Below are positions 29,663 to 44,424 of a stretch of DNA of 64,000 bases, in pieces. The stretch is from contig NW_027192673.1 in NCBI RefSeq assembly GCF_949987515.2, positions 739,001 through 803,000 on the forward strand, given 5' to 3'. This DNA is from Delphinus delphis. Lineage: Eukaryota; Chordata; Mammalia; Artiodactyla; Delphinidae. The notes under the pieces were generated by a model. That model saw only the letters and a program-made list of their open reading frames with translations. It had not been told where the DNA came from and made no database searches. A program made the position numbers and the translations under genes. Numbering within the stretch: the first letter of the stretch is position 1; every line of letters begins with the position of its first letter.

Positions 29663-31242
29663 TTGGCCAAAAAGGGCGTATGCGTTTTTTCCTGAATATA
29701 TTCAGGAAAAAACGCATACGCCCTTTTTGGCCAACCAAGCAAGCTTGCAAAGGAAATCTGCACTACAATGAAGTCTCACTTCCCCCCGGTCAAAAGGGCC
29801 ATCTGAAAAAAGTGTAAAATCCAGAAAGGCAGGACAGGCCATGGAGAACTGGGAGCCTTGTTATGCTGATGGGCGGGATGTAAATTGCCAACAGACACTC
29901 GGGAGAAGTGTATGGTGTTTCCTGAAACATCTAAAAAACAAAGCAACAGAGCCTAGGGCACTGCCACTTATGGTCCTATAGCTTAGGGAAATTAAAATCA
30001 AAAAGACACAGCCACCCCAAAGTTTGGAACGGCTCTGTTTACAAGAACCTCGTTTACAGTACAAGTTCAACATCGCAGAAAGTGAAAAATGGATAAAGAA
30101 GTTGTGGTATTTACTTACAAAGCAATATCACTCAGCAATGAAATCTGTGTCATGAGGCCCTTAGCAGCACAATGAGTGGATTCAGGTATGATGATTCTAA
30201 CTGAAATAAGTCACACAGAAAAAGAAACATCATAAGATATCAGTAATACACGGAATGGAAACTTGGCTACACAGGAACTGAATTACAGAACAGAACAGGG
30301 TCTCAAATTTAGAAAACCAACTTATGCTTGCTTAAGGGTAAAGGTGAGTTGGGGTGCTGCATAAAACCAGAGATTGAAATGAGCACAGATAAAGTTACTT
30401 AAGCCAAATATGGAATAGACATGAGCTACTCCTTGCTCAACGAAATGGACTCAACACCGCATATTAAACGCCTAAGAATGTACCTGACTAGTAAGTATCT
30501 TAAAACCTATGGATTGCTATGTCTCCGAAAGAGAATCAAGCATGTGTACAGGGGCATGAACGCAGCAGTGATAGGATTGGAGAGGTTCGGTGAGCAAATG
30601 AAGACCCTTTGAAGTCATATTGCATGGTACCCATTACACGGGTCTCAACTCTCCAGGTTTAAGGTATTCTTCCTTCAGCTAAAACATGCATGTGGAACCC
30701 CGCGTATGATCAGCCGTGTGAACGGGAGACATGTTCAAATATGTCTCAGTTTTCCTCCCCTGGTACTCGGGTGCAACATTCCAGACCCTTTACTAACACT
30801 CTCCCGACTTGGAGAGTCAGCGCCTTTAACCTCCTGTTTGGCCCAGTTTGCAATTTTTACGGAAGATGAACAGGAATAGGGAGAACCAATGAGAGACTAG
30901 CTGGAGGTGTCTGGACGGGCAAATTTAACTCTCATTTCCCACCAGGAAGAGGAAATAACCAAAGGCTCAGCGTGCCGTGCCGGAACCAGATTAGGGCCTG
31001 AAGCCATCCTGCGGTGTTGCGGCCAGCTCAAAAGAAAGCGAGTTGAAGAAAGGAGCTCAGGGTCTCTGTAATTCACAAACCTGCATAGTTATAAATGACA
31101 GCTATCGTCCAAAAATATACTGAAGTAAGGCTGCCAAGAGGACTTGAAAGCGGGGCAGAATTGCAGGATACCGATTTCAGGAGGTAGACTGGAATTGCAT
31201 TGAAAGCATAGGAAAAGAGGCAGAACGTCCACAATGATGCAC
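29663..31242 (+). repeat. Satellite monomer M19, subtype 2, palindrome perfect
   Basis: Length is 1,580 bp. It is the last fully homogeneous monomer before the island. Confidence 0.92.
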
Positions 31243-32035
31243 TGTGCCAAAAGGGCGTATGCGTTTTTTCCTGAATATATTCAGGAAAAAACGCATACGC
31301 CCTTTTTGGCCAACCAAGCAAGCTTGCAAAGGAAATCTGCACTACAATGAAGTCTCACTTCCCCCCGGTCAAAAGGGCCATCTGAAAAAAGTGTAAAACC
31401 CAGAAAGGCAGGACAGGCCATGGAGAACTGGGAGCCTTGTTATGCTGATGGGCGGGATGGAAATTGCCAACAGACACTCGGGAGATGTGTATGGTGTTTC
31501 CTGAAACATCTAAAAAACAAAGCAACAGAGCCTAGGGCACTTCCACTTATGGTCCTATAGCTTAGGGAAATTAATATCAAAAAGACACAGCAACCCCAAA
31601 ATTTGGGATGGCTCTTTTTACAGAAATCTCTTCTACGGCACAAGTTAAATATCCCAGAGAGCAAATAATGGATAAAGAAGTTGCGGTACTTATGTACAAC
31701 AGAATACCACTCAGCAATGATATCTATGTCACCAGGCCCGTACCAGCATAATGAGTGCATTGAGGCACGATGATTCTAAGTGAAATAAGTCACACAGAAA
31801 AAGAAACATCATAAGGTATCACTAATACACAGAATGTGAACTTGGCTACACATGAACTGAATTACAAAACAGAACAGGGTCTCAAGTTTAGAAAACCAAC
31901 TTATGCCTGCTTAAGGGGGAAGGTGAGTTGGGGTGCTGCATAAAAGCAGAGTTTTAAATTAGCACAGATACCGTTCCATAAGCCAAATATGTAATAGACA
32001 AGAGCTACCCCTTGCTCAACGAAATGGATTCAACA
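31243..32035 (+). repeat. Satellite monomer M20, decaying and truncated edge copy
   Basis: The palindrome's left end is altered (CTGTGCCAAAAGG). Up to ~31,575 it matches the array; beyond that, substitutions rise sharply (for example TACTTATGTACAACAGAATACC near 31,687). The monomer stops at 32,035, where an L1 fragment begins. Its variants near 31,800-31,930 recur in M21. Confidence 0.9.
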
Positions 32036-32720
32036 ATGAGGTATCACCTCACACCTGGTAGAATAGGCATCATTGAAAATCTACAAACAAAAAATGCTGG
32101 AAAGGGTGTGGAGAAAAGGAACCCTCTTCCACTATTGTTGGGAATATAAATTGATACAGTCATTATGGAGAACAATATGGAATTTCTTAAGAAACTAACA
32201 ATAGAATTACCATATGATACAGCAATCCCAGTACTGGACATATACCCAGACAAAACCATAAATCAAAAAGAGTCATTCACCGCAATGTTCATTGCATCAC
32301 TATTTACAATATCGAGGTAATGGAAGCAACCTAAATGCCCACAGACAGACGAATGCATAAAGCTGTGGTGCATATATAAAATGGAATATTACTCAGCCAT
32401 GAAAAGGAATGAAATTGGGTCATTTGTAGAGACGTCGATGGATCTAGAGACTGTCATACAGAGTGAAGTAAGTCAGAAAGAGAAAAACAAATCTTGTATA
32501 TTCATGCATATATGTGGAACCTAGAAAAACTGTACAGATTAACCATTTTGCAAGGCATAAATAGAGCAACAGATGTAGACAACAAACGTATGGACAACAA
32601 GGGGGGAAAGCTTTTGGGGGGGTGGTGGTGGGAGGAGTTGAGAGACTGGGATTGGCATGTATACATTTATATGTATAAAATAGATAACCAATAAGAACCT
32701 GCTGTATAAAAATATAAAAT
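32036..32720 (+). mobile_element. 5'-truncated L1, ORF2 C-terminus and 3'UTR
   Basis: It begins at AATGAGGTATCACCTCACAC, a standard block of mammalian L1 ORF2. It continues through recognisable ORF2 C-terminal codons (MEYYSAMKRNEIGSF near 32,383; VIQSEVSQKEKNK near 32,454) into a G-rich 3'UTR and GTATAAAATAGATAACCAA. Stops and frameshifts disrupt the ORF2 frame, so no functional protein is made. It abuts satellite M20 directly. The family is the cetartiodactyl type. The fragment starts close to the same L1 coordinate at which L1 homology begins inside the satellite monomer. Confidence 0.92.
32601..32637 (+). other. G-run cluster in L1 3'UTR, possible G-quadruplex
   Basis: Runs of six and seven G are followed by GG, GG, GGG and GG within 37 bp. 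Polypurine, quadruplex-prone tracts are a known feature of mammalian L1 3'UTRs. Confidence 0.6.
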
Positions 32721-32925
32721 AAAATTCAAAATTAAAAAGAAGTAAAATTTAAAAAATAAAACAGAAAAAACAATTATTCCCTGCACATACATGTATTTAT
32801 ATGAATAAATTATTTCCATGCTTATATCTGTAAATACAAAAAAGAGGAATAAAATCTACCTTGAACCAAAAACGAAAAAGAGAAAAAAAACACAGAACCC
32901 ACCAGTTACACAGAGGAAAACCGTA
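32721..32925. other. A/T-rich L1 tail and flank
   Basis: A-rich sequence with repeated AAATAAAA-like words, continuing from the L1 3' end and probably a degenerate poly-A tail plus low-complexity flank. No gene is seen. Confidence 0.6.
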
Positions 32926-34220
32926 TCAGGGCACTTGCTCCAGTTGTAAACAATTCTGAAGTTGGTCAGTGGTGGGGAATCGTCTCCCATTCAGCCAGCA
33001 GCCCCCACGCAACAAGCGTCCTCATTGCAAAGCTGGGGCACCGTGCCGAGGCATCTGTGAGTAAACGTGAGCTGAGCCCCAGGCCAGTTGCTGCTGAACT
33101 ATTCCCACCCGTCCCAGGTAAAACACCTGAATATATACAAGGACTTGAAAGCCTAGAGGAAGGGCCATAGAGCCACACGAGTGACAGCATGCCGGCCGAC
33201 TTGGTGCCTGCAGGCCAGCCAGGATGGTCCTGGCCCTGGGTGCTCTTCTGGAAGATTTCCATTTCCCTGCCTGAGATACCCGTCCTGTCCCTGCCCCCAC
33301 TGCTTTTTTCCTTCCTCACCTCTGCCCAGGGAGAAATTCCAGCAGCAGGTATGGGTGACACATCCTCTTCTTTAGCAGGTGGCAGCCTGGCAACTGCTGC
33401 AGAAAGTCCAGCAGAGCCCCACTCACACTGGGCCACCCACAAAGCCGTGGCCTCTCACTCCCTCCCACCAGCCCAGCCCCGAGACTGCTGACAGGGCAGA
33501 GAAAATGGCGTCAGGCACGGCTGCAGGGGCTCTTGCTGCCTGGAGTGGTATTTATATTGATCTCAACCCAGGCACACCTGGGGAGGGCTGGCCGGCACGG
33601 TAAGGCTGCCCAGGTCAGCCAATCATCACCCCTCAGGGGCTCACAGTTGCAGAAAATGGAACTTGCTGAACCGGCCAGGTCCAAGGAACAGGTGTGGGCT
33701 CCTGAGAGTCAGGATAGACAAGGGGCTGCAGCTTTGGCTTGTTTTCTAATCATTTTATCTGGCCCATGAGTGGGAGACAACTTCAAGAAAACCCTCTCCT
33801 AATGAGAGGAACCCAGGAGTCAGGGAGAGGAGGGGTGGGTGGTGGTTGGAGACAGAGGCCTGGTGCCCCGGGTGCAGTGGAAGTCTCTGGAAGACCAGGT
33901 GGAGGGAGGCCTCACGGAGTGATGCCCAGGGTCACAGACCTGTCGCAGCTGCTGTTTGTTAGTTCAAGTCCTGCTCTGAGGTGCTCTGTGTCAGCTCTGA
34001 GCGACAGGTGAGCTGGGGGTGCTCTGCAATGAGGGCTATGTGCACGGTTCCTGTGTGCCCAGCCCTGCCACGGTACCTGCAAGGGTAGCTCTGTATCCTG
34101 GGAGGGGCCTGACCACGAGAGCCCCGTGGGCTGGGGTGGGGGTGGGGTACCTGCCCAGGTGAGCTCCATATTCTGGGATTGGTCTGACCACGAGAGCCCC
34201 ATGGGCTGCTGGGGACCTGG
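32926..34220. other. Unassigned GC-rich single-copy-looking DNA
   Basis: About 1.3 kb, markedly more GC-rich than the satellite and not related to it. Several short overlapping frames lie on both strands (up to 158 codons, minus strand, 32966-33442). They are low-complexity Pro/Ser/Gly-rich translations with no domain I recognise and no matching splice structure. It may be a remnant of the retroviral insertion's 5' side or genomic DNA captured with it. Confidence 0.5.
34072..34208 (+). repeat. Two-copy tandem repeat, ~74 bp
   Basis: GGTACCTGC...GACCACGAGAGCCCCGTGGGCTG is followed from 34,146 by GGTACCTGCCC...GACCACGAGAGCCCCATGGGCTG. The period is 74 bp, with internal differences between the copies. 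It is a minimal minisatellite. Confidence 0.8.
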
Positions 34221-35200
34221 TAAAGGATGTCAGGACAGTCAGTGAAGCCACCGAGGATATACCTCCAGTTGCTCCTAATTCCTACACCCTGCTGGTCATT
34301 CTACCAACCACCAGGACATGGTATTCTGTATTAGTCTTCAATGATGCCTTCTTTTGTATTCCATTAGTCCCAGAGTCACAAGAAATTTTGGCTTGTGAGT
34401 GGCAGGACTCAACATACAACTAAAACAATACTTCCGGGCCGCCTGGCCCCAAGGGTGCAAAAATTCCCACACCATCTTTGGGGAAAGCTTAGCTAAAGAC
34501 CTAAAAGTTCTACCTCTGGAAAAGGAAACCCTCCTTCAATATGCAGACGACATTCTGATCACCAGCCCTACTAAGGAGGCCTCTGAACTACCAAGCCAAT
34601 AAAGGATAGAAGTTGTCCAAGAAAAAGCTCAAATATCACAGACTGCGGTGACCTGCCTGGGCTTCATTCTCACAGAAGGTCAGAGAAGCCCATCCCAGGA
34701 AAGGGAAGAAACCATTTTCAGCCTTACCCCTTTCTAAAACTAGAAGACAGCTTAGGGGTTCCTGGGGAGGCCAGGGTTTGCTGCTTCTGGATCCCTAGCT
34801 ACAGTCTACTAGCTGGGCCTCTATATGAAACACTGAAAGGAAAAGATGATGATCCTTTTGAATAGAATCCAGAAGTGGCCTTTCAAGAATGGAAAGAGCA
34901 GTCAATTCAGACCCTTGCCCTGGAACTCCCTAATTTAGCTAAACCCTTTGACCTTTACATTCCCGGTGAAAGGTGAATCGCCATTGGAGAATTAGTGCAA
35001 AAACTGGGACCACTTGAAATGGAACAATGCAAGAATGCCATCCAGGTAGGATAAACTACGGTCACTAAGGGGCTTGGCCCACTGCCACATCTGGCCAAGA
35101 TACTGGCGGTATCTAAAAACCTGGAAATCAGCAGCCCAAAAGGCCACCTCCCTCCTAAGGGAAAAGGACCCCACGTGGTGGTCCTAACCACCAACCATGC
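34221..35200 (+). pseudogene. Endogenous retrovirus pol remnant (RT and RNase H), broken
   Basis: Class I (gammaretrovirus-like) pol. Translation in shifting plus-strand frames gives reverse-transcriptase blocks: YTLL (~34,281), NDAFFCIPLVPESQ (~34,341), GESLAKDL (~34,480), the catalytic box YADD at 34540-34551, and a TCLGFIL block (~34,653). A connection/RNase H-like stretch with LAKPFDLYIPG follows near 34,937. Stops after ~34,420 and 34,600, at 34,863 and near 34,974, plus frameshifts, break it. The longest open piece is 67 codons (34399-34602). No gag or protease is seen upstream, and no integrase follows. It is an inactive fossil. Confidence 0.85.
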
Positions 35201-35700
35201 CCTGAAGTTGCAGGGTTCGCTCCGTGGGCACACCGACCTCGAGTGAGGAGGCCCTCCAACTCCAACACCCAGAGAGATAACCGGGGGCAACAGGGCACCA
35301 TGACGACTCGTGTGAACATCACTTGACCTGGAGTTTCTCTCATAAAACAACAAGAGTGTGTCCCAAAAGAGTAGACTACTGCTTGCAGGACTTACTGCAC
35401 CCAGAGGGGAGCTAATAATCTTGGCGGGGGAACAGTATACCACACTGTCACCATAGAAAAGCCGACAGACACCGTGATGATGGTGGCCAATAAGACCGGC
35501 TGGACTCCTGTTTACTTCAAAAGGCTGTTGACTCAGTAGCCATCATGGTCCTTGATCACCACTGACCCTGGACTGTCTGGGAGTTGAGCGGGCAGGGCTC
35601 TGACACCTGGTGCTGTTTGTACGTTAATTCAGGGGCCTAACTGAAGAAAGCGCAGACTACTGGTCAGAGCATCTAGGCTGGCAGAGACGGTCAGCCTAAG
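35201..35700 (+). pseudogene. Endogenous retrovirus env remnant, TM region scrap
   Basis: After the RNase H-like stretch only a few hundred bases precede the LTR-like end, so integrase and most of env are deleted. A degenerate transmembrane-subunit segment is visible: LQKAVDSVAIMVLDHH near 35,517, then a CC pair at 35611-35616 in the context DTWCCLYVNSG. This corresponds to the conserved cysteine motif of gammaretroviral TM. Stop codons interrupt it. The part from 35,201 to 35,500 is less certain. Confidence 0.6.
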
Positions 35701-36475
35701 GTGGCTGAACAAATGTGGGGCGGGGTGAAACCGGCCCCCACAGCGTCTCTGCACATCTCTTTCCTGGACCCTTAAAGGTCATTAGAATCTATAACACTTC
35801 CAATGCTGGTGCTCAGGTGGACGAGCAGGGAGGCAGGGGTCCTGGGGACAATCAACGTCACCGGGAGGCTGCTGGGGAGAAGCTCTGACCCTCGCCCCAG
35901 GGTATGAGGGCTCCCAACTCAGCACTCAGCAGTTACAGAAGAAGGGTCTGCACCCTCAGCACTCCAAGAATGAGGAACGGGACAAAAGGCAGAGGAGGGG
36001 TTTGTCCCCAGCAAAGCCCATTAAAAATCCCTGGGAGATAAAAATAGAATCTGGGCAATAAAGTCAAGTCTAACCTTTTTTATCCTTTGTGCTTTGTCTA
36101 ATTTCACGTGCTCCTAGGGTCCCGCATGCAGAGGTTCCACACCCGGCACTTCAGACCAGATTTCCTAGTGCAGAATGGCTGGGTCGACACCTCAGCTCCT
36201 GGGGCCCAGTGCAGACTCCACGATATAGAGCCTGAGCTACAGCCAACCCAGCCCTCGAGAGCTCCGCCGCCTCCCTCCCTCCCACTGACTCTGACAGGAT
36301 CTCTACACAGCAGCCCAGCCCACAGCCCACGGGGTAGTGCATGCTCTCACCTTTCCATTCTCTGATCAAAATATAAAGTTTCCTTTGCTTGTGAACCAAA
36401 CTCAGTCTCGATCTGTTGGCCCCAATGACACTGGGCAGGGGGACACTTGTTGGGGTCCACTCTGGAGGATCAGTA
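35701..36475 (+). mobile_element. LTR-like 3' end of the endogenous retrovirus
   Basis: Follows the env scrap in the place of a 3' LTR. Possible signals are CAATAAAGTCAAG near 36,056 and ATAAAGTTTCCTTTGCTTG near 36,372, followed by a G/C-rich end containing TTGGGGTCCACTCTGGAGG near 36,451. The pattern of AATAAA-type signal, pyrimidine-rich stretch and U5-like end is usual for class I LTRs. Exact borders and target duplications are not evident, and no matching 5' LTR was found in the island. Confidence 0.45.
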
Positions 36476-36804
36476 ACAGAAATTGAGACTATTGTAACCT
36501 CAATGAACAGATGTGTGAGCCAAACTGTAGTTAACATAGAACAGTGTATAAGGCTCGGGTAAAATAAGATGTTTTTAACACTTCCATTTGATATTTCCAT
36601 CACTTTTTATAAGCAAGTTCAGTGAAAAGGTTTGTCTTATTTGTCAGGTCAATATTAGAGAAACGAAGTGATTTCTTTCCAAGGATGTACAGCTAATAAT
36701 CTTGGTTAAACCTTCAATCTTGTTTTAAATGCTTTTCCATTGAAAATGATACCTCTCTTTCAGCTCCCCCATTTCTGAGAAGTATAAAATCTTATAATTT
36801 ATTA
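36476..36804. other. Unassigned A/T-rich DNA
   Basis: No repeat family or coding potential recognised. It lies between the LTR-like end and an L1 3'UTR scrap. Confidence 0.5.
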
Positions 36805-36985
36805 TTACCAAAGGGGAAAGGTGGGAGGAGGGATAAATTAACAGTTTGGAATGAACACATACACACTGCTATGTATAAAATAGATCATCAACAAGGAACT
36901 ACTGTATAGCACAGGGAACTACACTCAACATTTTGCAATAACCTATAAGGGGAAATAATCTGAAAAAGAATAGATATTTTTATTG
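36805..36985 (+). mobile_element. L1 3'UTR fragment
   Basis: It reads ACCAAAGGGGAAAGGTGG, then CACACTGCTATGTATAAAATAG, ACTGTATAGCACAGGGAACT and TCTGAAAAAGAATAGATATT in that order. This is the cetartiodactyl L1 3'UTR up to just before its poly-A. It shows the intact form of the 3'UTR words that are decayed in the satellite monomers. Confidence 0.85.
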
Positions 36986-37184
36986 ACATCATCTATCAAT
37001 GACAGTTAAAGTGTAGCCTAAGGGAAGCTGGTGGTGAGTGCTTCTGACCCTGAAGACTTCAATCATCTAAAGTTTGGACTCTGCCTACTTCCCAAGGCCC
37101 TTAATGAACATATGTGTAGCCGTAGCTTAAAAACTTCCCCAGTTTGGGTTTCGGGGAGACACTGATTTTGAAAAAGCCCTGGTG
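36986..37184. other. Unassigned DNA between L1 scrap and relic satellite
   Basis: Nothing recognised; the satellite match becomes visible from about 37,185. Confidence 0.4.
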
Positions 37185-37777
37185 TTCTCCTTACATGAAT
37201 GGGACTCTTCCTACTGCTAAAACATGTCTGTCACACCCAGAGGATGGTATACCGTCTGATCGGGAAGAGTTTGGAAAAGGCATCTCATCTCCTCATCTCC
37301 TGGTGCTCGGGTTCACCCCTCCAGCGTCTTTACTAACAGTCTCCCCACTTGGAGATGTCAGCACTGTCAACATCCTGTTGCGTACAGTTTGGAATTTGTC
37401 CAGAGGATGAAGCGGAAGGATGAGGAACAATGAGAGACAAGTCCTAGGTGTTCAGACAGGCACATGTCACTCTAATTTCCAATCAGGAAGACGAATTGAC
37501 CAAAGGCTAGGGTTGCCCATGGAAACAGTATAGGGCTTGAGGAAATCCCGCTGCTTTGTGACCAGTTCCCATAAACACGAGTTGAACAATGGAACTCAGG
37601 GGCAGTAAAATTCACAAAACTGCAGAGTTGAAAATATCCATCACTGAAAAATGTCTTGAGGAAAGTCAGAGAAAAGGACTTGTAAGCAAGGGAGAATGGC
37701 AGGAAAGGGATTTGAGGAGGTAGAAAGGACTCGCCATTAAGCACAAGAAAAGGAGCTGAACATTGCCAACATTGCAG
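37185..37777 (+). repeat. Relic satellite monomer D1, 5'-truncated, diverged
   Basis: It matches only the non-L1 part of the unit: CTACTGCTAAAACATG, GATCGGGAAGAG, CTTTACTAACAGTCTCCCCACTTGGAGA, ATGAGAGACAAG. Many substitutions are present. It precedes the relic palindrome of D2 with the usual spacing. Confidence 0.85.
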
Positions 37778-37847
37778 TTGGCCAAAAAGGGTGTATGCGT
37801 TCTTTTCTGTATATATTCAAGAAAAGGGCATACACTTTTTTAGCCAA
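37778..37847. repeat. Relic palindrome of D2
   Basis: An imperfect inverted repeat. Left GTGTATGC pairs with right GCATACAC, whereas the array uses GCGTATGC/GCATACGC, so both arms differ from the array consensus in a matched way. Outer bases extend to GTTGG...CCAAC. Confidence 0.85.
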
Positions 37848-38689
37848 CCAAACAGGTGGGCACTGGAAGTCAATACTACAAAAGATATCACTTCGCATCA
37901 GTCAGAAGAGCCATCCTCATAAAGCGTAAACAACAGAAATGCAGGACAGGGCAACGAGAAGAGGGAGCCCTGTGAGACTTATAGTGGAAATGTATATTGC
38001 CAACGGCCATTCTGGAGAAGTGTATTGTGTTTACTAAAGCATCTAAAAAATGAGCTACAGAGCATAGGGCACTTGCACTCATGGGCGTATATCTTGGGAA
38101 AAACAAAAATCGAGAGGACACAGGCACCCCAATGTTTACCCCCTCTCTGTTTAAAAGATCCTCGACTAGGATATAACTTAAATGTCTCTGGAGGGGAAAA
38201 ATGGATAGAGATGTGGTACTTAGGTAGAGTGGAATATTATTCAGCCTGGAAATCAATGAAATATGGCCAGTTGTAACGACTCCGGAGGAGTTACGTATGA
38301 TCATTCTAAGTGACAGAATTCAAAAAGAAAAAGACACATATCATAAGATATCACTTAAAGGTGGAATCCAAAATGGCTACACATGAAATAAATTACAAAA
38401 CAAAAACATAGTCAAATATGTAGAAAACACGCATAAGGCTGCTAAACGGGAAAGGTGGGGAGGGGTGAGGCATCATCCAGGAGGTTGAAATTAGCAAAGA
38501 TACCATTCCAAATACCAAACTGATAATCAACAAGGCCTACACGGTAGCTAAAAGAACTGCACTCAGCACACTCAAGTCACCGGAAAAGAATATATACGAC
38601 TGGTAAGAATCTGAAAAAGAATTTATTGATGTCTCTCTGTACGTGAATCAAGTGGATGTACAGCAGCAAGAAACAGAGCTTTGAAAATC

Positions 38690-38850
38690 AGCTGTAACCA
38701 ATATAGTAATAAATTGAAAAAAATAAACGACAGAGAGACAGAGAAAACCTCTTACAACTTTTCCTCAGGGACGGTGATGCAACATGGATTGAACACATCT
38801 AGACCCACAGCAGGATGAGACATAAGGCTGGAAACTGTTTGCGCTAAGAG
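38690..38850 (+). repeat. Junction segment kept in D2, absent from 1.58-kb monomers
   Basis: It holds an A-rich AATAAATTGAAAAAAATAAA stretch that fits a decayed L1 3' end and poly-A, then non-L1 sequence including GATGCAACATGGATTGA and AGACATAAGGCTGG. The equivalent place in array monomers goes directly from CAGCAGTGA to TAGGATTGG. Borders are approximate. Confidence 0.75.
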
Positions 38851-39517
38851 AAATGTGAGGTTGGGTGAGGAAATGCACACCCTTTAAAGTAATACTACCT
38901 GGTACCCATTCAATGGGTCCCAAATCTGCAGGTTCAAGGGATCTTCCTACAGCTAAAACATGCATGGAAAACCCAGAGGACTGTACACCATGTGATCGGG
39001 AGATGTGTCTAAAATGCACCTCATTTATCCTCTCCTGGTGCTCCTGTTCACCATTCCAGCCACGCTACTTAGAATCTCCCCACTTGGAGAATCAGCACAT
39101 TTAAACTTCTGTTTCACACATTTTGCAAATTGTGAGGAGGATGAACGGGAAGAGGGGGAACCAATGAGAGAAGAGTTGTAGGGGTTTGGACGGGCACATA
39201 TCACTCTAATTTCCCATTAAGAATAAGAATTAAAGAAAGGCTCAGCCTGCCTCGCCGGAGCCAAAATAGGGCCTGAAGCAATCCTGCGGGTTTGAGGCCA
39301 GCTCACAAAAGAGCAACTTAAAAAATGGAGCTCAGGGTCACTGCAATTCACAAACCTGCAGAGTTATAAATGAAAACTAACGTCCAAAAATATGTTGAGG
39401 TAAGGCAAAGAAGAGGATCTGAATGCAAGACAGAATTGCAAGAAACAGATTTCAAGAGATAGATTGGACTCGTCTTTAACGCACATGAAAAGCGGCAGAA
39501 TTTCGACAATGATGCAG

Positions 39518-39589
39518 TTGGCCCAAAAGGGCGTATGCGTTTTTTCCTGATTATATCCAGGAAAAAACGCATACGCACTTTATGGGCAA
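39518..39589. repeat. Relic palindrome of D3
   Basis: 72 bp long with several arm mismatches near the outer ends (TTGGCCCAAAAGG against CTTTATGGGCAA) and an altered centre (TGATTATATCCAGG). The inner arms remain paired. Confidence 0.88.
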
Positions 39590-40430
39590 CGAAGCAAGCA
39601 AGCAATGCAAATGTGCACAACAAAGAAGTCTCACTTCCCACCGGTCAAAAGGGCCATCCTAAAAAATTGTAAAAACCAGAAATGCAGGACAGGCCATGGA
39701 GAACAGGGAGCCTTTATACGTTGATGGGCAGTGTGTGAACTGCCGAGAGCCACTCTGGAGAAGTGTATGGTGGTTCCTAAATCATCTAAAAAACAGAGCT
39801 ACAGAGCATAGGACACTTCCAATCATGGGAGTATATCTAGGGAAGTCTAAAAATCAACAAGACACAAGCACACCACAGTTTAGGGCTACTCTGTTTACAA
39901 GAACCTCAACTTCAGTACACCTTAAATATCCCAGGAAAGAGAACAATGGATAAAGAAGATGTGGTACTTATGTACAATGGAATATCTCTTCACCATGAAA
40001 TCAATGTAATAAGGCTAGTAGAAGGATAAAGAGTGGATTTAGGTCCGATAATACTACTTGAAATAAGTCAAACAGAAAAAGAAACATATCATAAGATATC
40101 ACTTATAGAGGGAGGGTAAATATGGCTGCACAAGAAATGAATTACAGAACAGAACAGTGTCTCACATTTAGAAAACACACTTATGTCAGCTTAAGGGGAA
40201 AGGAGAGGTGGGGTGATGCATAAAACCAGAGTTTGAAATTAGCACAGATACCGTTCAATAAACCAAATAGGTATTAGACAAGATCTACACCTTGCTCAAT
40301 GAACAGGCCTCAACACACCCTATACACCGCAGAGAAATATATCTGAGGAATAAGAATCTTAAAACCCATGTATTGATATATCTCCATAAGGGAATCAAGT
40401 GTGTGCAGAGCGGCACAAACACAGCAGTGA

Positions 40431-40600
40431 AAAGGAGCTAAACCCCATTATAGAAATAAATTTTAAAAACAAAACGCTGAAACAATGAAAGAGAGAAAAA
40501 TTCTTACAAAATTCGCTCAGGGGATGTGATGCAACCTGGATTGACCACATATAAACCCACAGCTGGATAAGACATAAGGCTGGACACTTGGGGCTGACAG
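40431..40600 (+). repeat. Junction segment kept in D3, absent from 1.58-kb monomers
   Basis: It lies between ACAGCAGTGA and GATTGGTGAG, which are adjacent (2-3 bp apart) in every array monomer. It includes AAATAAATTTTAAAAACAAAA, GATGCAACCTGGATTGA and AGACATAAGGCTGG; the last two match D2, so the segment is ancestral and not a private insertion. Confidence 0.85.
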
Positions 40601-41267
40601 GATTGGTGAGCTTTGGTGAGCAACTGCTGAAAGTTTAATGCAATACTTCATGCTACTCAGTCCAAGGGTCCCAACACTCCAGGTTGAAGGGAATCTTCCT
40701 ACAGCTAAACCATGCTTGGGAAACCCAGCGACTGGTATACCATATGATCGGGAAAGGTTTCTAAAACGCACCTCATTTTTCCTCTCCTGGGGCTCCGGAT
40801 CGACATTCCAGCCGCTTTACTAACAACATCCCCACATGGAGTCAATGCCTTTAAGTTCTGGTATCGCACAGTCTGCAGTTAGTGCAGAGGATGAATGGGA
40901 ATAGGGGGAACCAGTGAGAAACTAGCTGTAGCGGTTTCAATGGGCACATGTCACTCTAATATCACATCAGTAAGAAGAATTAACCAAAGGCACAGCAAGG
41001 TGCCCCAGAAGAAAAATAGGGCTTCAAGGAATCCTGTGGTTATGGGGCAAGACCACAAAAATAAGAGCTAAAAAATGGAGCTAAGGGCCACTGCAATTCG
41101 AAAACCTGCAGAGTTATAAAGGCCAACTATTTTTTAAAAATATATTGAGGTAAGGCTATGAAGAGGCATTGAAAGCAAGGCAGAATTGCAGGAAACCGAT
41201 TTCAGGAGGTAGACTGGAATTGCATTGAAAGCATATGAAGAGAGTCAGAAACTCGACAATGATGCAC

Positions 41268-41339
41268 TTGGCCAAAAAGGGAGTATGCGTTTTTTCCTGA
41301 ATATATTCAGGAAAAAACGCATACTCCCTTTTTGGCCAA
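41268..41339. repeat. Palindrome with matched changes in both arms (M21)
   Basis: The left arm reads GGGAGTATGCG and the right arm CGCATACTCCC, where the array consensus has GGGCGT and ACGCCC. Two substitutions 46 bp apart keep all 72 bp perfectly palindromic. Confidence 0.95.
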
Positions 41340-42845
41340 CCAAGCAAGCTTGCAAAGGAAATCTGCACTACAATGAAGTCTCACTTCCCCCCGGTCAAAA
41401 GGGCCATCTGAAAAAAGTGTAAAATCCATAAAGGCACGACAGGCCATGGAGAACTGGGAGCCTTCTTATGCTGATGGCCGGGATGTAAATTGCCAACAGC
41501 CACTCTGGAGAAGTGTATGGTGTTTCCTGAAACATCTAAAAAACAAAGCAACAGAGCCTAGGGCACTTCCACTTATGGTCCTATAGCTTAGGGAAATTAA
41601 AATCAAAAAGACACAGCCACCCCAAAGTTTGGGACGGCTCTGTTTACAAGAACCTCGTTTACGGTACAAGTTCAATATCGCAGAAAGTGAAAAATGGATA
41701 AAGAACTTGTGGTACTTACGTACAATGCAATATCACTCAGCAATGAAATCTATGTAATCAGGCCCGTAGCAGCATAATGAGTGGATTCAGGTATGATGAT
41801 TCGAACTGAAATAAGTCACACAGAAAAGAAACATCATAAGGTATCATTAATACACAGAATGTCGACTTGGCTACACATGAACTGAATTACAAAACAGAAC
41901 AGTGTCTCAAGTTTAGAAAACCAACTTATGCTTGCTTAAGGGGGAAGGTGAGTTGGGGTGCTGCATAAAACCAGAGATTGAAATGAGCACAGATAAAGTT
42001 CCTTAAGCCAAATATGGAATAGACAAGAGCTACTCCTTGCTCAACGAAATGGACTCAACACCCCATATTAAACGCCTAAGAATGTACCTGACTAGTAAGT
42101 ATCTTAAAACCTATGGATTGCTATGTCTCCAAAAGAGAATCAAGCGTGTGTACAGGGGCATAAACGCAGCAGTGATAGGATTGGAGAGGTTCGGTGAGCA
42201 AATGAAGACCCTTTGAAGTCATATTGCATGGTACCCATTCCACGGGTTTCAACTACCCAGGTTTAAGGTATTCTTCCTTCAGCTAAAACATGCATGTGGA
42301 ACCCAGAGTATGATCATCCGTGTGAACGGGAGACGTGTTCAAATATGTCTCAGTTTTCTTCCCCTGGTACTCGGGTGCAACATTCCAGACGCTTTACTAA
42401 CACTCTACCAACTTGGAGAGTCAGCGCCTTTAACCTCCTGTTTGGCCCAGTTTGCAATTTCTGCGGAAGATGAACAGGAATAGCGAGAACCAATGAGAGA
42501 CTAGCTGGAGGTGTCTGGACGGGCAAATTTAACTCTCATTTCCCACCAGGAAGAGGAAATAACCAAAGGCTCAGCGTGCCGTGCCGGAACTAGATTAGGG
42601 CCTGAAGCCATCCTGCGGTGTTGCGGCCAGCTCACAAGAAAGCGAGTTGAAGAAAGAGCTCAGGGGCACTGTAATTCACAAACCTGCAGAGTTATAAATG
42701 ACAACTATCGTCCAAAAATATACTGAAGTAAGGCTGCCAAGAGGACTTGAAAGCGGGGCAGAATTGCAGGAAACCGATTTCAGGAGGTAGACTGGAATTG
42801 CATTGAAAGCATAGGAAAAGAGGCAGAACGTCCACAATGATGCAC
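41268..42845 (+). repeat. Satellite monomer M21, border mosaic, subtype 1-like
   Basis: Length is 1,578 bp. It has array-like sequence with relic patches, for example AAGGTATCATTAATACACAG near 41,838 and GGGGGAAGGTGAG near 41,940, which match M20 at the other side of the island. It is the first short-form monomer after the relics. Confidence 0.92.
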
Positions 42846-44424
42846 TTGGCCAAAAAGGGCGTATGCGTTTTTTCCTGAATATATTCAGGAAAAAACGCAT
42901 ACGCCCTTTTTGGCCAACCAAGCAAGCTTGCAAAGGAAATCTGCACTACAATGAAGTCTCACTTCCCCCCGGTCAAAAGGGCCATCTGAAAAAAGTGTAA
43001 AATCCAGAAAGGCAGGACAGGCCATGGAGAACTGGGAGCCTTGTTATGCTGATGGGCGGGATGTAAATTGCCAACAGCCACTCGGGAGAAGTGTATGGTG
43101 TTTCCTGAAACATCTAAAAAAAAAGCAACAGAGCCTAGGGCACTGCCACTTATGGTCCTATAGCTTAGGGAAATTAAAATCAAAAAGACACAGCCACCCC
43201 AAAGTTTGGGACGCCTCTGTTTACAAGAACCTCGTTTACAGTACAAGTTCAACATCGCAGAAAGTGAAAAATGGATAAAGAAGTTGTGGTATTTACTTAC
43301 AAAGCAATATCACTCAGCAATGAAATCTACGTCATCAGGCCCTTAGCAGCACAATGAGTGGATTCAGGTATGATGATTCTAACTGAAATAAGTCACACAG
43401 AAAAAGAAACATCATAAGATATCAGTAATACACGGAATGTAAACTTGGCTACACAGGAACTGAATTACAGAACAGAACAGGGTCTCAAATTTAGAAAACC
43501 AACTTATGCTTGCTTAAGGGGAAAGGTGAGTTGGGGTGCTGCATAAAACCAGAGATTGAAATGAGCACAGATAAAGTTCCTTAAGCCAAATATGGAATAG
43601 ACAAGAGCTACTCCTTGCTCAACGAAATGGACTCAACACCGCATATTAAACGCCTAAGAATGTACCTAACTAGTAAGTATCTTAAAACCTATGGATTGCT
43701 ATGTCTCCGAAAGAGAATCAAGCATGGGTACAGGGGCATAAACGCAGCAGTGATAGGATTGGAGAGGTTCGGTGAGCAAATGAAGACCCTTTGAAGTCAT
43801 ATTGCATGGTACCCATTCCACGGGTTTCAACTACCCAGGTTTAAGGTATTCTTCCTTCAGCTAAAACATGCATGTGGAAGCTAGAGTATGATCAACCATG
43901 TTATCGGGAGATGTGTTCAAATATGTCTCAGTTCTCGTACCCTGGTACTCGGGTGCAACATTCCAGACGCTTTACTAACACTCTCCCCACTTGGAGAGTC
44001 AGCGCCTTTAACCTCCTGTTTGGCCAAGTTTGCAATTTCTGCGGAAGATGAACAGGAATAGCGAGAACCAATGAGAGGCTTGCTGGAGGTGTCTGGACGG
44101 GCAAATTTAACTCTCATTTCCCACCAGGAAGAGGAATTAACCAGAGGCTCAGCGTGCCGTGCCGGAACCAGATTAGGGCCTGAAGCCATCCTGCGGTGTT
44201 GCGGCCAGGTCACAAGAAAGCAAGTAGAAGAAAGGAGCTCAGGGGCACTGTAATTCACAAACCTGCAGAGTTATAAATGACAGCTATCGTCCAAAAATAC
44301 ACTGAAGTAAGGCTGCCAAGAGGACTTGAAAGCGGGGCAGAATTGCAGGAAACCGATTTCAGGAGGTAGACTGGAATTGCATTGAAAGCATAGGAAAAGA
44401 GGCAGAACGTCCACAATGATGCAC
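42846..44424 (+). repeat. Satellite monomer M22, subtype 2, palindrome perfect
   Basis: Length is 1,579 bp. Its 3' part (GGCCAAGTTTGC near 44,023; AAGCAAGTAGAAG near 44,217) recurs in M31. Confidence 0.92.

Follow-up and report, generated by a model that had tools for sequence, protein, structure and literature searches.

Organization of the locus

We analyzed a stretch of 64,000 nucleotides from Delphinus delphis, hereafter the window, in which a self-comparison revealed a young array of 1.58-kb satellite monomers on either side of a diverged stretch at about 32036-41842. The features are listed below in coordinates of the window; short form refers to the 1,570-1,580-bp monomer, and D1, D2 and D3 are the three diverged satellite copies.

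244-31817, + strand: young short-form array, 20 full monomers of 1,570-1,580 bp, 95.4-99.0% identical to the short consensus
31818-32035, + strand: partial short monomer that spans monomer positions 1-218 and breaks off where the block begins, 90.4% identical to one short monomer
32036-41178, + strand: the whole amplified block, about 9.1 kb, recognized by its recurrence at many loci
32036-32765, + strand: 3' end fragment, presumably LINE-1-like, 62% identical over 662 bp to D1/D2, which served as outgroup
32766-34398, no strand assigned: non-satellite DNA, partly G+C-rich by eye
34399-35243, + strand: broken retrovirus-like sequence with pieces of a reverse transcriptase and of an integrase C terminus, from Pfam matches
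36780-37010, + strand: second 3' fragment, presumably LINE-1-like, 63% identical over 180 bp to D2
37196-38350, + strand: D1, a diverged, 5'-truncated satellite copy, 72-74% identical to the short consensus, old throughout
38351-40097, + strand: D2, a long-form monomer of 1,747 bp, 67-82% identical to the short consensus, old throughout
38682-38856, + strand: extra segment of D2, 175 bp in 8 of 8 loci
40098-41178, + strand: old part of D3, 74-80% identical to the short consensus
40428-40594, + strand: extra segment of D3, 167 bp in 8 of 8 loci
41179-41842, + strand: young part of D3, 95.8% identical to the short consensus
41843-63951, + strand: young short-form array, 14 full monomers of 1,570-1,580 bp

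The block is composed of a 5.16-kb transposon-bearing stretch followed by D1, D2 and the old part of D3. Eight stop-free pieces were searched against Pfam; two gave the retrovirus-like matches at 34399-35243, to RVT_1 (E 1.4e-6) and MLVIN_C (E 1.9e-4), neither reaching the Pfam cut-off, five had no match, and one matched Swm2 (E 0.055), which was dismissed as chance. By eye, a long-terminal-repeat-like stretch appears to extend to about 36450. No Rfam family was detected in 31000-43000. Exact searches of viral contigs with the palindrome of the monomer and with a presumed LINE-1 tail motif gave no matches, a shorter motif gave five matches in bacterial genome contigs that were taken as chance, and searches of one LINE-1-like piece against plasmids and of the other against phages returned none. 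The truncated start of D1 (37196) lies about 90 bp downstream of the site at which the longer copies carry an extra segment, so that the length class of D1 is unreadable.

Two minor features of the locus are recorded here. Within the non-satellite DNA at 32766-34398 there are two similar pieces of 62-63 bp, at 34072-34133 and 34146-34208 (82.5% identity). The last full monomer to the left of the block (30239-32035 region) is the most diverged of the 34 in the window, with 95.4% identity to the consensus, and, taken with the 90.4% partial monomer that follows it, the region looks as if some of the old edge had been mixed in.

Two long-form monomers share one extra segment

The common cetacean satellite has a monomer of about 1,580 bp in delphinoids and of 1,760 bp in other whales. 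In the window, palindromes at 37777, 39517, 41268 and 42846 gave spacings of 1,740, 1,751 and 1,578 bp, the first two of which reproduce the distances of 1,740 and 1,750 bp that the initial annotation had reported for D2 and D3, as against 1,570-1,580 bp in all 34 full short monomers (34/34). By monomer boundaries, the long form measures 1,747 bp in D2 and 1,745 bp in D3.

The added length was found to be a single homologous segment at an identical site in both monomers, as had been proposed. The proposal of surviving long copies had been made to hang in part on whether the two segments align with each other; they do so with 78.5% identity over 144 bp (E 6e-30) and a local score of 138, where 200 shuffles reached at most 30. 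K2P distances between D2 and D3 were 0.35 to the left of the segment, 0.30 inside it and 0.29 to its right, and from this similar divergence of the segment and its flanks the ancestor of D2 and D3 probably already carried it. A reading frame over part of the D3 segment had no protein match at E <= 0.001 (two candidates).

Judged by its monomer length and by its relation to LINE-1, the satellite is probably of the whale type. It shares with the common cetacean satellite the monomer length, near 1,580 bp in the short form and near 1,750 bp in the longer one, and a relation to the 3' end of LINE-1, these being the two characters compared; it differs in the block with transposon remains, which is absent from the descriptions in the literature searched. 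The literature searched contained no description of such a repeated block and no sequence or length table for the cetacean satellite.

D3 is a mosaic of old and young sequence

D3 is an old/young mosaic, in which the left parts are 80% and 74% identical to the short consensus and the remainder is 95.8% identical. The dense mismatches end at 41178 and the following 57 bases are free of mismatches, while a last cluster of six mismatches lies at 41236-41255; on account of this cluster the switch is placed between about 41179 and 41255, or it may be stepped. A smooth gradient of divergence from D1 to D3 was dropped as a description of the locus because D3 turns from old to young inside one monomer.

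Trees and the direction of the length change

The LINE-1-like stretch at 32036-32765 aligns across the D1/D2 junction (62%, 662 bp) and the D2/D3 junction (61%, 669 bp), as expected from the likeness of the cetacean satellite to LINE-1 reported in the available excerpts of PMC9659126, citing Kapitonov 1998. This stretch, only about 62% identical to the satellite, was the outgroup of a rooted tree of 19 sequences that included 15 of the 34 short units. The tree was a ladder in which the D1/D2 unit branched first, then D2/D3, and then the short units together with the young part of D3 (supports 100/100), and in both basal units the sequence leads directly on to a copy of the extra segment.

In each of three separate segments the short monomers formed a single clade, with supports of 100, 100 and 77 (D3 is young in the third). 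That clade excluded D2 and D3 in segment A, and D1 as well as D2 and D3 in segment B, with support 100 in each. This agrees with the earlier prediction that D2 and D3 branch outside the short clade, for the one genome sampled and with an order of the old copies that varies by segment. In the segment A tree D3 was the nearer relative of the short form; in the segment B tree, rooted on D1, D2 and D3 paired on a very short branch (support label 97), a pairing that leaves the direction of the length change open in that segment.

Taken together, the sequence comparisons within the window favour the long form as ancestral, with a deletion in the short form as the simpler reading, the segment trees not being unanimous. 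The loss would be simpler because the LINE-1-like root puts the segment-carrying units at the base. In both D2 and D3, the best fit for the tail of the LINE-1-like stretch is at the start of the extra segment; 47 and 66 of 500 shuffles reached this fit, which is therefore no better than chance (roughly 1 shuffle in 10). The description of D2 and D3 as surviving pre-deletion copies was thus retained in part: segment homology and basal position speak for it, and what falls away is survival by protection from homogenisation. The distances among D1, D2 and the old part of D3 (0.29-0.51) look too high for a simple clock; in alpha satellite, abandoned layers are reported to be hypermutable (PMC2729386, in the excerpts available).

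The block is repeated and uniform across the genome

We searched the 2.66-Gb assembly (630 contigs) with the D2-D3 stretch (3,490 bp); every one of the 40 scored places, which lie on 28 contigs and include the window, matched it in full. The scored places were drawn from 1,600 first-look candidates, so that the number of such places is at least 40. Upstream stretches were fetched for 20 of the 39 other places, and in all 20 the transposon part was colinear with the window. Over 31778-37777 these copies had a mean identity to the window of 99.2-99.9% per 500 bp (lowest single bin, 98.6%). The two LINE-1-like pieces had no match in two arbitrary 8-kb stretches of contig C1. The full matches at all 40 places, with the near-identical upstream parts in all 20 fetched copies, show that the block is amplified and itself uniform. 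D2 and D3 are old sequences, not isolated survivors; the D2-D3 stretch has neither the few copies nor the non-uniformity across the genome by which a relic would be recognized.

Among the 21 copies, the window included, the transposon part differed by 0.37% on average (210 pairs). The copies showed 119 variable sites, 66 of them singletons. Copies on the same contig differed over 32036-37777 by 0.09% (5 pairs) and copies on different contigs by 0.39% (205 pairs, range 0.03-0.59%); the two ranges overlap, the lowest value between contigs being 0.03%. The flanks were compared after excluding 7 of the 21 rows, in which another block lies close upstream, leaving 91 pairs. In these, the two flanking monomers differed between copies by 3.2% and 3.5%, against 0.38% for the transposon part. 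Pairwise comparison of all 34 short monomers in the window likewise gave 3.5% (561 pairs), the same level as for the flanking monomers between copies. The partial monomer at 31818-32035 had a mean pairwise difference of 0.66% (91 pairs), which indicates that it mostly travels with the block, and in all 6 copies tabulated the left cut fell at an identical position of the monomer.

On the right side (28 pairs, 8 loci), the mean difference was 0.25% in D1, 0.13% in D2 and 0.27% in the old part of D3, rising to 1.95% in the young part of D3 and to 3.1% in the next monomer. The step from 0.27% to 1.95% means that the boundary of uniformity coincides with the old-to-young switch in D3. Five longer right flanks, with 2-4% over their first 3.5 kb, were in agreement. 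One block copy (G000:C1:184360658-184364147) is located roughly 0.5 Mb short of the end of contig C1 (184.9 Mb), a position that would fit terminal heterochromatin.

Blocks and short monomers alternate in variable numbers

Another block was present within about 4.2 kb upstream in 7 of the 20 fetched stretches, and none that close in the other 13. Certain blocks stand almost in tandem. In one case (L012) block follows block directly, with no full short monomer between; one short monomer separates the blocks at L018, L025 and L026 and two do so at L017, while at L021 and L028 the end of another block lies at the same distance as at L017. Downstream, the next block at L031 begins after two short monomers. 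Same-contig spacings of 11,606, 16,342, 16,346, 17,923 and 22,657 bp correspond to 10,025 bp, measured from the monomer start before a block to the monomer start after it, plus 1, 4, 4, 5 and 8 short monomers. Measured neighbour blocks are thus separated by 0 to 8 short monomers; in the window there are at least 20 to the left of the block and at least 14 to its right.

In a higher-order or composite satellite, a unit of several distinct parts is repeated whole. The block resembles such repeats, as it too is a multi-part unit repeated as a whole with low divergence between units, and it differs from them in that non-satellite DNA makes up more than half of it and in the variable count of short monomers from one block to the next.

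Proposed origin and spread of the block

We consider it probable that the block at 32036-41178 is the fossil edge of a long-form array, which short arrays captured and carried along as they spread. The ancient edge would have consisted of transposon-bearing DNA beside three old satellite copies, D1 now truncated and D2 and D3 of the long form, all of which would predate the loss of about 167 bp that produced the 1,580-bp monomer. Homologous exchange inside D3, somewhere around 41179-41255, may have joined its right side to a short array, and a break behind position 218 of a monomer may have done so on the left. Within arrays the block would then have spread by unequal exchange, as the near-identity of neighbours on a single contig suggests, and it would also have passed from array to array by exchange, as copies on 28 contigs suggest. 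Its uniformity would follow if it had been founded recently as a unit and paired chiefly with its own copies, whereas the short monomers beside it would exchange with a far larger and older pool; that the flanks are no more alike than random short monomers fits this larger pool.

The initial annotation had offered a different history, in which D2 and D3 are local relics that escaped homogenisation next to transposon insertions, which would have blocked pairing. The strong divergence of D1-D3 and their place beside transposon remains agree with it, but a sheltered relic would not recur with hardly a change at all 40 scored places, spread over 28 contigs, with upstream parts 99.2-99.9% identical in 20 of 20 copies, nor would copies of the block be more alike than the short monomers are. 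We therefore did not maintain protection from homogenisation as the explanation, which is quite improbable for the present copies; it could hold only for a single founding locus before amplification. Less improbable, and still unlikely, is that the extra segment is a later insertion in an old side lineage and that the short form has the original length. Long forms were seen only inside the block, TGA occurs at either end of the D3 segment, as would be expected after a small duplication and equally after a microhomology deletion, and the segment B tree leaves the direction open; against this, the LINE-1-rooted ladder places the segment-carrying units successively at the base and the segment is as diverged as its flanks.

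Could the block instead be a mobile element that inserts into satellite arrays? Its many sharp-edged copies and its retrovirus-like and LINE-1-like content might suggest so, yet the spacing between blocks is in register with the short monomer, the left edge lies at the same monomer position in all six copies tabulated, the transposon parts that were scanned are broken, and satellite lies upstream in all 20 fetched copies, so that we regard such an element as very improbable. The rounded 100% match at all 40 scored places is also what an assembly artefact would give, with one locus copied into many contigs. This we hold to be extremely improbable, since the flanking monomers differ between copies by 3.2-3.5%, as any two short monomers do, the numbers of intervening monomers vary, and the copies bear substitutions of their own.

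Returning to a captured array edge as the preferred reading, the evidence leans, with some reserve, towards the broader statement that a fossil edge, complete with its transposons and pre-deletion monomers, was taken back into the living satellite and is now a repeat unit in its own right across the genome. If so, homogenisation would here carry ancestral satellite rather than erase it, leaving a multi-copy record of the long form in a short-form genome. The age of a satellite sequence and its continued part in homogenisation, two things often equated, are separated at this locus. One array holds two pools, a loose one of short monomers that differ by about 3.5% and a much tighter one of block copies that differ by about 0.1-0.4%; a recombination switch in one monomer forms their boundary. 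Two pools side by side would allow exchange rates to be compared, and the block offers an in-genome root for the short form. Such long copies, on the other hand, are not to be taken as single orthologous relics across whales.

A partial parallel is found in human centromeres, where, in the excerpts available of Shepelev 2009 (PMC2729386), old alpha satellite layers that have lost the ability to homogenise flank the active array. There, as here, older monomers of one family adjoin young homogeneous arrays, and the younger variants are described as spreading between chromosomes. In that account the old layers flank the array, whereas here the old edge is embedded in the young array and is itself widely copied.

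The palindrome of the monomer

The 72-bp palindrome at 41268-41339 and at the equivalent sites of other monomers was perfect in 24 monomers (23 short ones and D3) of the 32 that aligned there free of gaps, 5 of the 37 monomers having been set aside for gaps. Compared with the core, the palindrome of D3 carries one change, present on both arms with pairing kept; the other 16 changes are one-sided.
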